The position numbers and the translations under genes were made by a program. This document shows, in pieces, positions 2 to 11,171 of a DNA stretch of 24,928 bases (its first letter is position 1; every line of letters starts with the position of its first letter). Source of the DNA: a virus. The notes below the pieces were generated by a model that worked only from the letters and a program-made list of their open reading frames with translations, was not told where the DNA came from and ran no database searches. The stretch spans positions 1 through 24,928 of IMG/VR virus record IMGVR_UViG_3300050025_000018. One strand, 5' to 3'.

Positions 2-1423
2 TTGTCAAAGGGCGCGTGTAAAGAAAGAACAGAGCGCAAAATCAGCAGAACGCGCTATAATCGGCTCATGAGACAGAAACCAGAACATCTGCTGATTACA
101 AAAGACTTACAGAATAATCCCTGCGCGATCAATAAAAAGCTGGCTGATCTGATTCCTGATTCGCGCAATGCGAACAAAGGCAGCGAACGCGGTAATCAGA
201 TGATAGAGAACAGCTTACGGGAATATGGCGCGGGTCGTTCAATCCTTCTTGACAAGCATGGCGCGATCATCGCAGGCAACAAGACTGCTGAGAACGCTGG
301 CGCAATCGGCATAGACGATGTGATTGTGGTCCAAAGCGATGGAACGAAGCTGGTTGCTGTTCAGCGCACTGACTTGGACCTTGCTGATTCTCATACTCGG
401 CAGCTCGCTATTGCAGATAATCGTTCCGGCCAGGTATCGCTCGATTGGGATACGGACACGCTGAAGGAGCTTGCGCTAGATGGCGTGGACTTGGCTCCGT
501 TCTGGTCGGCGGATGAGTTGCAAGCAATGTGGCCGCAGACAGAGGAACTGCTCACAGACGAGGATGATGTGCCGCCTGTGCCGGTTGAGCCGGTCAGCAA
601 GTTGGGCGATCTGTATGTGCTAGGCGAGCATCGGCTGCTGTGCGGGGATAGCACCAGCGTGACGGACGTCGAGCGGTTGATGGGCGGACAGAAGGCGGAA
701 TATCTCTTCACGTCACCGCCTTATGCTGACATAAGAACATACGGACAGGCTGATGCCGATATGTCGGTCGCACATCTCAAAATGTTTATACGCTCATTTA
801 TGGAATTATGCTCGTATGTGACTATAAATCTAGGACTTAAACGTAAAGAGCATGAGGTCGTTCCATATTGGGATGAATACATAGCCGAGGCGAAGGACTG
901 CGGGTATAAATTCCTATCTTGGGGAGTGTGGGCCCGCCCATCAGCCGGTAGCGTTGGCAATCAGTCTGCATTCTTCCCATGTACGCACGAATGGATGTTC
1001 ACCTTCGGCAAGGCGTTCAAAGACATCAATCGTTGCGAGGATAGGCGCACCAAGCCTTACAAGAATGGCGCCACGCGCACGGTTCGTGAACCTGATGGCT
1101 CTATGAAGTGCACGAGTCGGGGAGAGCAGGGTGAGCGCAAAGAACTTGAAAGCGTTATATTCTTGAATCCAGAGCTAGGTGCTATACGCAAGGAACATCC
1201 GGCCACATTCCCCGTCGCGCTGCCAGAGAAGTTCATCAATGCGATTACATCGAGCGGGGAGAGCGTGGTTGACCCATTCGGCGGTTCCGGAAGCACCCTC
1301 ATCGCCTGCGAGAAGACAGGCCGCAGATGCTATATGATGGAACTGTCGCCCGCGTATTGCGACGTGATCGTGACGCGCTGGGAGCAGGCAACGGGGAAGA
1401 AGGCGATCTTGAATGCCGAATAG
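2..1423 (+). CDS. ParB-like domain fused to DNA methyltransferase (beta class, possibly N4-cytosine)
   Basis: Two domains are visible. Residues about 45-180 look like a ParB/Spo0J-type nuclease-fold domain, with a DLIPDSRNANKG stretch and then DSHTRQLAIADNRS. Residues about 200-470 are an S-adenosylmethionine-dependent DNA methyltransferase. The catalytic motif TSPPY (237-241) comes before the AdoMet-binding motif DPFGGSGST (424-432), which is the order of the beta class. A SPPY core is more usual in N4-cytosine than in N6-adenine enzymes, but this is not decisive. The reading frame is open from a TTG at base 2 and could extend upstream of the window; an in-frame ATG at 68 is another candidate start, and neither has a clear ribosome binding site. 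The gene overlaps the next by 11 bases, so it belongs to the packaging operon. Such fusions are common beside phage terminases. Protection of phage DNA from host restriction is a likely role, by inference. Confidence 0.85.
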   Translation: MSKGACKERTERKISRTRYNRLMRQKPEHLLITKDLQNNPCAINKKLADLIPDSRNANKGSERGNQMIENSLREYGAGRSILLDKHGAIIAGNKTAENAGAIGIDDVIVVQSDGTKLVAVQRTDLDLADSHTRQLAIADNRSGQVSLDWDTDTLKELALDGVDLAPFWSADELQAMWPQTEELLTDEDDVPPVPVEPVSKLGDLYVLGEHRLLCGDSTSVTDVERLMGGQKAEYLFTSPPYADIRTYGQADADMSVAHLKMFIRSFMELCSYVTINLGLKRKEHEVVPYWDEYIAEAKDCGYKFLSWGVWARPSAGSVGNQSAFFPCTHEWMFTFGKAFKDINRCEDRRTKPYKNGATRTVREPDGSMKCTSRGEQGERKELESVIFLNPELGAIRKEHPATFPVALPEKFINAITSSGESVVDPFGGSGSTLIACEKTGRRCYMMELSPAYCDVIVTRWEQATGKKAILNAE

Positions 1424-8829: not shown

Positions 8830-9144
8830 ATGTACCCAACTACCCAATCCGTTCCATCTTCGATCCTTGCAGGAGTAGCGCAAGGATATTCGTCCCAACT
8901 CTGTCAAGCAGAACAACCTTCGTCGGGAATCGCATCGAGGGTTGGGGAACTCCAAAAAGCCGTTGCAGAAATCTGCGAAGCCGCATACAACATTCGTGGA
9001 GCTTTAGGTATTTTGGTTCCTACTGAGGTCGGCAAGAATGCGGTCGCTCCATCATCGCTTACTGAATTGCTTCTCAGTCTGCGCCACCAATTAACCCAGG
9101 CAAACTCTGAATTGCGGGATGTTTTGACGCATATCAACTCTTAG
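8830..9144 (+). CDS. Small helical head-region protein, unknown function
   Basis: A 104-residue protein between the scaffold-like gene and the capsid leader. A TAGGAG ribosome binding site lies 8 bases before the ATG, in an otherwise plain 35-base gap. The first 35 residues are Ser/Gln-rich and probably flexible. The rest appears as two helices (VGELQKAVAEICEAAYNIRG and LTELLLSLRHQLTQANSELR). It could be a minor head, decoration or assembly factor given its place; nothing identifies it. It ends at the start of a terminator-like hairpin region, so it may be the last gene of one transcript. Confidence 0.6.
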   Translation: MYPTTQSVPSSILAGVAQGYSSQLCQAEQPSSGIASRVGELQKAVAEICEAAYNIRGALGILVPTEVGKNAVAPSSLTELLLSLRHQLTQANSELRDVLTHINS

Positions 9145-9153
9145 CCTACCGGC

Positions 9154-9179
9154 GCAATAGCACTTGTGCTATGCTTTTT
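9154..9179 (+). terminator. Terminator-like hairpin upstream of the capsid gene
   Basis: ATAGCA and TGCTAT arms flank a CTTG loop. The helix extends by GCA/TGC with one bulged A (left arm 9154-9163, right arm 9166-9174), and five T follow (9175-9179). This is the shape of an intrinsic terminator. CTACC (9146-9150) could also pair with GGTAG (9180-9184) around it. I found no convincing promoter between it and the capsid gene, so partial termination or phage antitermination would be needed. A purely structural role is possible. Confidence 0.4.
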
Positions 9180-9184
9180 GGTAG

Positions 9185-9309
9185 AGATTGACGTTCGATA
9201 GGAGTTGCGCCCTTGAGAAGCTGACTTGCCTCAGCAAATTAGCATGGCAGGCCGGAAAGACGGCCATTAAGTTCAGGCCCGTTCTCAGCCGGGTTTCTAA
9301 AGAGTAAGC
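9185..9309 (+). other. Non-coding stretch ahead of the capsid leader
   Basis: No gene is visible here. The stretch holds several short hairpins: GCTGA/TCAGC (9220-9224 with 9231-9235, CTTGCC loop), GGCCG/CGGCC (9250-9254 with 9261-9265) and a weak CCCG/CGGG pair (9279-9282 with 9289-9292). A TTCAGG at 9272-9277 could compete for the left arm of the capsid leader helix. A nine-codon open frame (9244-9270) lacks a ribosome binding site. No good promoter was found. Confidence 0.4.
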
Positions 9310-9384
9310 CCTGAATGAAGCAGTTGATGGGACATCAACGCCGGGGCGCGAAAGCGCAGCCGAGCTTTATTCAGGAGCATTATC
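9310..9384 (+). promoter_or_regulatory. Structured three-way-junction leader of the capsid gene
   Basis: The 75 bases before the capsid ATG fold on paper into a compact junction. P1 pairs 9310-9320 with 9365-9375 (11 pairs, one G-U). P2 pairs 9323-9329 with 9333-9339 (7 pairs, GGA loop). P3 pairs 9342-9344 with 9360-9362, then after a small internal loop 9346-9349 with 9354-9357 around a GAAA tetraloop. Each junction strand is only two bases. P1 covers CAGG of the capsid Shine-Dalgarno AGGAG (9373-9377). The pairing is seen directly; a regulatory role is inferred. Confidence 0.55.
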
Positions 9385-10749
9385 ATGGGCGTACCGATGG
9401 TAGAACTGGCCGCAGAGGCCATTGAACTGGATGCGTGGGTACAGGAAATTCCTGATTATCAAGCGCATTTTGACCGTTTTCTCACCCGCCTCGAAAAATC
9501 CGCACACAAAATGGACATTTCCAACTACACGACTGGCGGCGGCCAGAGCCGTCAGCCGATGCGTGTTCCGTTCCGTGGGCAGGGCGGCGCTGCAATCCAA
9601 CAGGCAACCGCCGACACCTCCAGCGCAATCTTTATCTGGAATCGCGGCACCGGCTCGAACTATGGTGGCTTCACCGCTGCCCCTGTTCGTCTGGTCAACA
9701 CCTGCGAAATCTCCAACCTCACCCAGCAGGCAACCGACGGCAAGGACCGTGGCCTGGTCAAGATCAAGCGCGAAGAGCTTCAGAACTCGCTCAAGGTGTT
9801 TGACAACGGCGTGGAAGCACTTCTACACCGCGACGGCTCCGGCACCATTGGAGTTATCGGACCTCTCGGAACCATCAACAGCACGACCGGCGGCGGAATC
9901 TCTGGCAGCGCAACCTATTCCAGCATCACCGGCATCGACAACGCGACTGCTTTTCAAGATCAGCAGACCGTTACTGCGCTGTCGGCGGTTGGTGGCACCA
10001 GTCATGGCTCCTTCACCATCTCCTTCATTGACCATGTGGCCAATATCCTCTACTGCACCTCTGCATTGCCTTCAACGGCTGGCGGACCGGCAGTAGGCGA
10101 CATTCTGGTTGTGCAGGGCGGAACCGGCGCGGCTGCATCGTCCATTCTCGGCAAGGATTATTGGCTCCAGAATGGCAATGTGGGCACCATCGGCGGCGTG
10201 AGCAAGGCTGATTGGCCCGGACGGCTTTCGACCCCCACCATCAACTTTGGCGGGACTGGAACCATCGTTCCGCAGACCGCACAGCGCGTAGAAGCCATTC
10301 GTATGCGTGCAATGGGCGACGACTACGACGCGAACGAGAAGGGCTTCTGGCTGGCGAATCCCGCGCAGGGCGTGGCACTCTCCAACCAGTTCTACGGCCC
10401 CGGCTACACCCGTCTGGATGAGGGCAACCGCGAGAATGTTCCCGATTTGGCCCGCAAGATGATGCAGAAAACCGTGCTGGGTGATGATGTGGTCTGGGCA
10501 TCGACCGCAGAAGCTACCCGCATGGATTACATCATCCCCGACACATGGTACTTCGGCGAACTGTTCCCGACGCGGCTGCACGAATGGACCCCCGGAAACA
10601 CTGTTGCTGCTGTCCCGGCCATCGCCGGTTCTGCTAGTCAGACGTATTATGACAGCACTATGTTTGCATACGAGAGGGGATTTCAGCTCGTTTGTAATGA
10701 CCCGAAACGTAACTTCTATCTGCAAGGATTGCCGGTAGTGCAGCTTTAA
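9385..10749 (+). CDS. Major capsid protein (HK97-fold, putative)
   Basis: A 454-residue protein in the capsid position after portal and scaffold. The N terminus is helical (VELAAEAIELDAWVQEIPDYQ). A flexible segment (TGGGQSRQPMRVPFRGQGG) and an FIWNRGTGSNYGG segment follow. Residues about 160-270 are Gly/Ser/Thr-rich and beta-like and look like a surface domain inserted in the core. The C-terminal part (SQTYYDSTMFAYERGFQLVCNDPKRNFYLQG) resembles the closing strands of capsid P-domains. Codon choice is cleaner and richer in C-ending codons than in neighbouring genes, as expected for the most abundant protein. The start is fixed by AGGAG 7 bases upstream; the ATG at 9397 has no such site. The HK97 fold is inferred. 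Confidence 0.8.
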   Translation: MGVPMVELAAEAIELDAWVQEIPDYQAHFDRFLTRLEKSAHKMDISNYTTGGGQSRQPMRVPFRGQGGAAIQQATADTSSAIFIWNRGTGSNYGGFTAAPVRLVNTCEISNLTQQATDGKDRGLVKIKREELQNSLKVFDNGVEALLHRDGSGTIGVIGPLGTINSTTGGGISGSATYSSITGIDNATAFQDQQTVTALSAVGGTSHGSFTISFIDHVANILYCTSALPSTAGGPAVGDILVVQGGTGAAASSILGKDYWLQNGNVGTIGGVSKADWPGRLSTPTINFGGTGTIVPQTAQRVEAIRMRAMGDDYDANEKGFWLANPAQGVALSNQFYGPGYTRLDEGNRENVPDLARKMMQKTVLGDDVVWASTAEATRMDYIIPDTWYFGELFPTRLHEWTPGNTVAAVPAIAGSASQTYYDSTMFAYERGFQLVCNDPKRNFYLQGLPVVQL

Positions 10750-10754
10750 CCCAT

Positions 10755-10802
10755 CGGCTGATGATAAGCCGTAACCGCTTAGGGGGTGAGCGCATCACCC
10801 CC
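10755..10802 (+). promoter_or_regulatory. Double hairpin between capsid and co-chaperonin genes
   Basis: Two hairpins fill the 65-base gap. CGGCT/AGCCG (10755-10759 with 10767-10771, 7-base loop) comes first. A strong eight-pair stem GGGGGTGA/TCACCCCC (10782-10789 with 10795-10802, GCGCA loop) comes second. The second ends at the base before the GGAG ribosome binding site (10803-10806) of the next gene. No U tract follows, so it is not a standard terminator. It may protect the 3' end of capsid mRNA or reduce downstream translation. Confidence 0.5.
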
Positions 10803-10814
10803 GGAGACAGAGAC

Positions 10815-11171
10815 ATGAAGCTGAACGAGACAGTTCCGATTGAGACATTCCTCGATGTGCTGTTGATCGAGGAGATTCCGGTAGAGAACGCGACCGATAC
10901 CGGAATTGTGACGGCGGACGGAGCACAGATTATTCGCTCTGCCAAAGCAGTGCGTAAACCGATGACCGGCAAGGTGCTTTCGTGCGGTGAACGGTTTCCA
11001 ATGTCGGGCGTATGGGTGGACAATCCCTATCGCCCTGGTGATGTAGTGAGGACCAATGAGTTTGGACGCGACTACATTGTGCTTAACCCCGATGACGAAT
11101 TCAGGCCGGACGCGGTGAAGTATTACCTGATCCGGTATGAGGACGTGATAGGCAAGGTAGCAAATGCGTAG
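10815..11171 (+). CDS. GroES-like co-chaperonin (putative)
   Basis: A 118-residue protein resembling the Cpn10/GroES family, the lid of the GroEL folding chamber. An N-terminal strand (FLDVLLIEEIP) is followed by a segment in the mobile-loop position (NATDTGIVTADGAQII), where a hydrophobic GIV or QII could be the GroEL-binding tip. Then come KPMTGKVLSCGERF and YRPGDVVRTNEFG, matching GroES-type turns (G-V-V-A-G, then V-G-D-x-V), and a final strand pair ending YYLIRYEDVIGKV, like the GroES C terminus. Length is slightly above the usual 95-100. I chose the ATG at 10815 because GGAG sits 8 bases upstream; an in-frame ATG at 10761 would translate through both hairpins. It follows the capsid gene directly, as expected for a capsid-folding helper such as T4 gp31. 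A homology search is needed to confirm. Confidence 0.65.
   Translation: MKLNETVPIETFLDVLLIEEIPVENATDTGIVTADGAQIIRSAKAVRKPMTGKVLSCGERFPMSGVWVDNPYRPGDVVRTNEFGRDYIVLNPDDEFRPDAVKYYLIRYEDVIGKVANA

Follow-up and report, generated by a model that had tools for sequence, protein, structure and literature searches.

A pseudoknotted leader before an HK97-fold capsid gene is a candidate two-state RNA switch in a lineage of tailed phages

The DNA analysed here (the window) is a 24,928-nucleotide stretch of the IMG/VR virus record IMGVR_UViG_3300050025_000018. Judged by its modelled fold, the gene at 9385-10749 encodes an HK97-fold major capsid protein. The AlphaFold2 model is of moderate confidence (pLDDT 62). 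Its matches in the PDB are HK97-fold phage capsids (SU10, E 4e-9), and its matches in BFVD are major capsid proteins (E 2e-15). No family match to the protein was found in Pfam or PHROGs, and none of the cultured phage genomes searched from GenBank encodes a recognisable relative. Relatives are present on IMG/VR contigs and on contigs of Acidobacteria metagenome-assembled genomes (MAGs). On the basis of five MAG contigs, the host of the phage group is apparently Acidobacteria.

A GroES-like co-chaperonin gene is located directly 3’ of the capsid gene (10761-11171, plus strand; PHROG 3188, E 8.5e-9; Pfam Cpn10 at threshold). Some phages carry such co-chaperonins for capsid folding. Together with a weak terminase match in a gene well upstream, the capsid and co-chaperonin genes identify the window as a tailed-phage cluster of late structural genes. 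Between a scaffold-like gene and the capsid leader is a 104-residue open reading frame with a good Shine-Dalgarno sequence and without a family match (8830-9144, plus strand). This reading frame was not seen in the closest relatives, L001 and L002, in which the leader is directly 3’ of the scaffold-like gene. By appearance, a long open reading frame at 2-1423 (plus strand) may encode a ParB-like/DNA methylase fusion. No tRNA genes were found in the window. One of the four divergent relatives scanned, L033, carries a tRNA-Thr (CGU) gene immediately 5’ of its capsid leader (2215-2289). Features of the capsid gene and its leader are listed in Table 1.

Table 1. Coordinates of the capsid gene and of the leader features in the window.
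Feature	Position	Strand	Basis
Extended -10-like promoter motif TGCTATGCT; predicted transcript start ~9182	9167-9175	+	Sequence reading
Small upstream hairpin GGCCGGAAAGACGGCC, common to closest relatives L001 and L002	9250-9265	+	Fold, comparison
Arm A (anti-sequestor), GUUCAGG	9271-9277	+	Native A-B pairs better than swapped; covariation in relatives
Hairpin S1 (CCCG/CGGG); loop CUC 9284-9286 can pair with GAG 9302-9304	9278-9293	+	Covarying pseudoknot in relatives
A-rich linker UUUCUAAA, pseudoknot strand GAG (9302-9304) and conserved U(A/U)AG	9294-9309	+	Comparison of leaders
Arm B, 5’ strand of P1; partner is arm A or arm C (Shine-Dalgarno)	9310-9321	+	Folding, pairing tests, relatives
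P2 hairpin; loop and 3’ strand bear conserved motif GRGACAUC	9323-9339	+	Relatives, motif count
P3 hairpin, GAAA tetraloop	9342-9362	+	Fold, alignment, relatives
Arm C, 3’ strand of P1, overlapping Shine-Dalgarno AGGAG (9373-9377)	9364-9375	+	Fold, pairing tests, relatives
Major capsid protein gene, HK97 fold, 454 aa; the putatively regulated gene	9385-10749	+	AlphaFold2 model and structure matches

The first-pass annotation had drawn three helices in the leader, P1 (9310-9320/9365-9375), P2 and P3, and all of them were found at these positions. P1 extends to 12 pairs (9310-9321/9364-9375), one of them G-U. P2 (9323-9329/9333-9339) forms 7 pairs, or 6 with a 5-nt loop. P3 is composed of 9342-9344/9360-9362 and 9346-9349/9354-9357, closed by the GAAA loop. 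The pairing exceeds chance, as had been claimed. The minimum free energy of 9300-9400 is -44.2 kcal/mol, compared with -27.0 ± 3.1 kcal/mol for dinucleotide shuffles (z -5.48), and 0 of 200 shuffles were as good. In the computed fold, two further GC pairs form, as does a short distal stem between 9304-9309 and 9377-9383. With these additions most of the Shine-Dalgarno AGGAG is paired, so that the earlier description of P1 as tying up CAGG was correct and understated.

The element is also larger than the 66 nt assigned to it at first. It spans about 113 nt (9271-9383) and includes, at 9271-9309, a competing upstream arm and a pseudoknot domain that the earlier description lacked. Arm A (GUUCAGG) is a near copy of the Shine-Dalgarno-containing arm C (...UUCAGG), and arm B is complementary to each of them. 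Since arm B is shared, the A-B and B-C pairings are mutually exclusive. In the window the arms are A GUUCAGG, B CCUGAAUG... and C UAUUCAGG. The equivalent arms are A GAUUCGUA, B UACGAAUCCUGAG and C CUUAGGAUUC in L025, A AAUUCGA, B UCGAAUUC and C GAAUUCG in L022, and A GGGAUUC, B GAAUCCCAAGCG and C CGUUUGGG in L037.

Removal of near-duplicates and three later additions gave about 34 distinct leaders, 24 of the window’s broad type and 10 divergent (sub3). In window-type relatives, P1, P2 and P3 are kept through compensating base changes. P1 is found as CCUGAAUGAAGC/GCUUUAUUCAGG, CCUGAGUGAAU/AUUCAUUCAGG, CCCUUGAG/UUUGAGGG and CCUCUGAG/UUUAGAGG, and P2 as GUUGAU/AUCAAC, GCGA/UCGC and CGUUGA/UCAACG. 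The 3’ strand of P1 is the Shine-Dalgarno sequence in all but a few leaders. A gapless test found no clear Shine-Dalgarno helix in L044, and by reading, the Shine-Dalgarno sequence of the sub3 leaders L035 and L036 is paired only with a bulge. The first-pass annotation had named homologous capsid genes without conserved pairing as evidence that would count against the structure. Examination of the homologues found the pairing conserved and covarying, and with it the sequestration of the Shine-Dalgarno sequence.

The leaders share a conserved sequence motif. Of 31 leaders, 28 contain GAGACA, a rate about seven times that of the background, and the motif is usually located 50-60 nt upstream of the start codon. 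The version in the window is GGGACA (9329-9334). More distant relatives lack the P2 hairpin and retain its GAGACA within an internal loop. Most of sub3 contain several copies. In L033, L034, L038 and L047, for example, two to four copies are found within about 200 nt, 5’ of the helix that hides the Shine-Dalgarno sequence, and some sub3 copies are in the context GAGACAUAGCAGCACCGCAAC. The extra copies may be additional binding sites.

The domain between arms A and B contains a hairpin of the CCGG/CCGG type, a linker rich in A and the motif U(A/U)AG. The loop of this hairpin can, in most leaders, pair with a strand 3’ of the linker, and the two strands of the resulting pseudoknot covary (CGAG/CUCG, ACCG/CGGU, CCAG/CUGG, UCCC/GGGG, GCUG/CAGC, CCAC/GUGG and UCUCGGU/ACCGAGG). 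With hairpin boundaries set by eye in the same sequences, permutation p values were 0.001-0.004 when five leaders without the pseudoknot were excluded and 0.016 when they were included. In these five leaders a local hairpin takes its place, giving a two-hairpin form. The pairing test found no pseudoknot in L013, and that of the window would be only three pairs (CUC/GAG).

Support for the two competing pairings came from exchanging arms between phages in 21 distinct leaders, with anchors and arm regions set by eye in the same sequences tested. The mean energy of A-B is -10.2 kcal/mol for native and -7.2 kcal/mol for swapped arms, and that of B-C is -11.9 and -8.5 kcal/mol, respectively (p 5e-5 for each, in permutations that ignore phylogeny). 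For either pairing, 0 of 20,000 swapped-arm permutations were as good as native. The A-B signal emerged with anchoring on the bases that pair with the Shine-Dalgarno sequence; an unanchored automatic three-arm search picked wrong arms, and its A-B signal was not significant (Fisher p 0.11). In 13 leaders aligned by MAFFT alone, pairing in the A-B helix reaches 93%, and 4 of its 7 pairs show double changes, a count that likewise ignores phylogeny. Slid-partner controls on this alignment, which retain relatedness, reached at most 45%.

Additional comparisons were made on other alignments. B-C, the inner helix P1b and P3 were above controls on the covariance-model alignment, which leans to its own structure. 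RNAalifold predicted no structure on a plain MAFFT alignment of 21 leaders, because the leader lengths are too different. The leaders found later, L119, L133 and L134, have matching arms A, B and C by inspection. In the window’s subtype, support for arm A is weaker (single-sequence p 0.05-0.34), and L014 of this subtype has no clear A arm. The competitor arm is conserved and covaries across the leaders, which therefore contain two mutually exclusive conserved pairings, one of them hiding the Shine-Dalgarno sequence, as expected of a translational riboswitch; for the window’s own A-B pairing this is weak.

The element is strictly linked to this capsid gene. A covariance model built on 12 leaders of another subtype than the window’s gave strong matches (E below 1e-3) once per phage and only upstream of this gene. 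Weaker matches elsewhere (E 0.01-5) look like chance. The window, its closest relatives and most of sub3 were not recovered by the model because it was built on the other subtype, and the evidence for these leaders is their anatomy and the pairing tests. Motif pattern scans of IMG/VR viral contigs, made independently of the capsid, returned capsid leaders together with matches that the covariance model rejected; these non-capsid matches are chance-like and were discarded as further elements. A search for a host-encoded version in 247 Acidobacteriota genomes returned only an already known phage-like contig.

That the RNA matches no named class was borne out by Rfam searches. Rfam 15 gave no gathering-level match in the window, and the segment 9100-9450 had no match even with E values of up to 5 allowed. 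In ten relatives there were three weak matches, all of them unrelated and far below gathering scores. Literature searches found neither a description of the element nor an RNA switch on a dsDNA-phage capsid gene. The element thus matches no Rfam family and looks like a new RNA class.

We propose that the capsid mRNA leader is a bistable translational switch, a reading of the sequences to which we give a probability of about two in three. In the off state, arm B would pair with arm C and the capsid Shine-Dalgarno sequence would be buried. In the on state, arm B would pair with arm A, which would close the small domain of hairpin and pseudoknot and leave the Shine-Dalgarno sequence free. Translation would be controlled by the exchange between these states. 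Computed folds suggest that the switch is off by default. Arms A and B are transcribed before C, and in many relatives the on-form could fold first. It would then have to be stabilised, or be captured by ribosomes, before arm A loses its partner to C.

The conserved loops may bind a trigger. Recognition probably takes place at GAGACA in the B-C domain and at the A-rich linker and U(A/U)AG of the A-B domain. Both the repetition of GAGACA and the strict association with the capsid gene suggest that a phage late protein (capsid, scaffold or other assembly factor) is the most plausible putative trigger, which would provide feedback on shell production. A metabolite or a purely kinetic timer is possible in this role. 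The first proposal that the RNA controls capsid translation holds in that a structured RNA is placed to tie up the Shine-Dalgarno sequence; the mechanisms listed for it need correction. Among mechanisms a switch fits best, whether operated by a protein or a ligand, or kinetic.

The folding energies bear on this proposal. In a nested model that ignores the pseudoknot, B-C, which hides the Shine-Dalgarno sequence, is more stable than A-B in every leader, by 0.6-13 kcal/mol, and by the same model A-B of the window is 12 kcal/mol less stable than B-C. For L019, L020, L021, L022, L025, L037 and L041, the prediction is that A-B pairs while C is still untranscribed and gives way to B-C in the full leader. 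For the window, the predicted probability P(AB) is at most 0.05 throughout, and at no stage would A-B be the predominant pairing. On these computed folds, it is chiefly this weak A-B pairing that counts against a switch in the window itself.

The higher stability of B-C throughout, and the weak A-B energetics in the window’s own subtype, would also be compatible with a static protein operator. In such an operator the B-C three-way junction would be a fixed repressor site for capsid or scaffold feedback, of the kind exerted by RNA-phage coat protein or ribosomal proteins, and arm A would be incidental or only a folding intermediate. No other part is as conserved as GAGACA, and one subtype carries it several times, as multi-site protein targets often do; the linkage to the capsid gene only is suggestive of an operator autoregulated by protein. 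However, a static operator has no need of the strong A-B covariation observed in relatives, and we consider it unlikely.

A strict ligand riboswitch is slightly less likely again. This reading narrows the switch proposed above to one triggered by a metabolite. The aptamer would be either the pseudoknot domain of A-B or the internal loop of B-C, and the small molecule bound would be one whose level rises in late infection. The layout of sequestor and anti-sequestor, the pseudoknot and the conserved loop nucleotides resemble riboswitch anatomy. However, the element is found only before one structural gene and never before metabolic or transport genes, and it matches no Rfam riboswitch. The occurrence of the A-B domain in both pseudoknot and two-hairpin forms would be unusual for a tight aptamer.

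Promoter-like motifs 5’ of the element are suggestive. Many relatives have TGnTATGAT or TTGACA-17-TTTAAT-like sites upstream of the leaders or arm A (combined p 5e-4), and in several the predicted transcript start is within about 10 nt of arm A. A promoter scan of the window preferred another, non-significant site over that at 9167-9175. An in-frame or conserved leader peptide was considered and, by sequence reading, appears not to be encoded: the ATG at 9315, within arm B, is not in the capsid reading frame, and lengths vary among relatives. Two features would suit an mRNA processing or stability element, for example an RNase III site or a protective 5’ structure as in T7, with the Shine-Dalgarno pairing a by-product removed by cleavage: the long stable helix just 5’ of a presumably highly expressed gene and, in several relatives, promoter-like sites close to the 5’ boundary of the element. 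The covarying third arm and the conserved loops are left unexplained by processing. It is a weaker rival since it does not need arm A, and we regard it as improbable. The thermosensor suggested in the first-pass annotation is very improbable: an RNA thermometer would have its Shine-Dalgarno sequence within a helix, as here, but the stacking energy of P1 in the window is by itself -20.5 kcal/mol, which would make the helix difficult to melt at ordinary temperatures, and the conserved loops, pseudoknot and competing arm argue against it as well.

The proposed switch shares features with several known systems. As in translational riboswitches, mutually exclusive helices hide or free the Shine-Dalgarno sequence and the upstream domain bears a pseudoknot. 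Unlike them, the capsid leader has no known aptamer or ligand and no Rfam match, and the gene controlled is a phage structural gene. The autoregulatory leaders of ribosomal proteins and of T4 gene 32 are bound by a known protein product. They are likewise structured leaders that contain a pseudoknot and cover the start site of an abundant protein that binds nucleic acid or acts in assembly, whereas the capsid leader has a third competing arm and no known binder. The MS2/Qbeta coat-protein operator is a single hairpin of the replicase gene. It also overlaps a translation start and is linked to a capsid protein; the element described here is larger and precedes the HK97-fold capsid gene of a dsDNA phage. 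The T7 gene 10 (capsid) leader, with its RNase III sites, has a stable stem-loop 5’ of the capsid message, as in our leaders, and its Shine-Dalgarno sequence is free. To our knowledge, no alternative pairing has been described for it.

The fuller form of the switch reading, which we regard as about evenly balanced, is a new class of RNA switch restricted to one lineage of tailed phages, apparently infecting Acidobacteria. In it, an assembly protein or a metabolite of late infection would be sensed by the pseudoknotted leader, which would thereby time the synthesis of the major capsid protein or place it under feedback. For dsDNA phages, both the amount and the timing of capsid production have to be right. 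The leader is compact, is conserved in about 34 distinct leaders and makes clear mutational predictions, so that control of the capsid at the RNA level is directly testable. A capsid switch of this kind would also be a new family among the catalogued structured RNAs.
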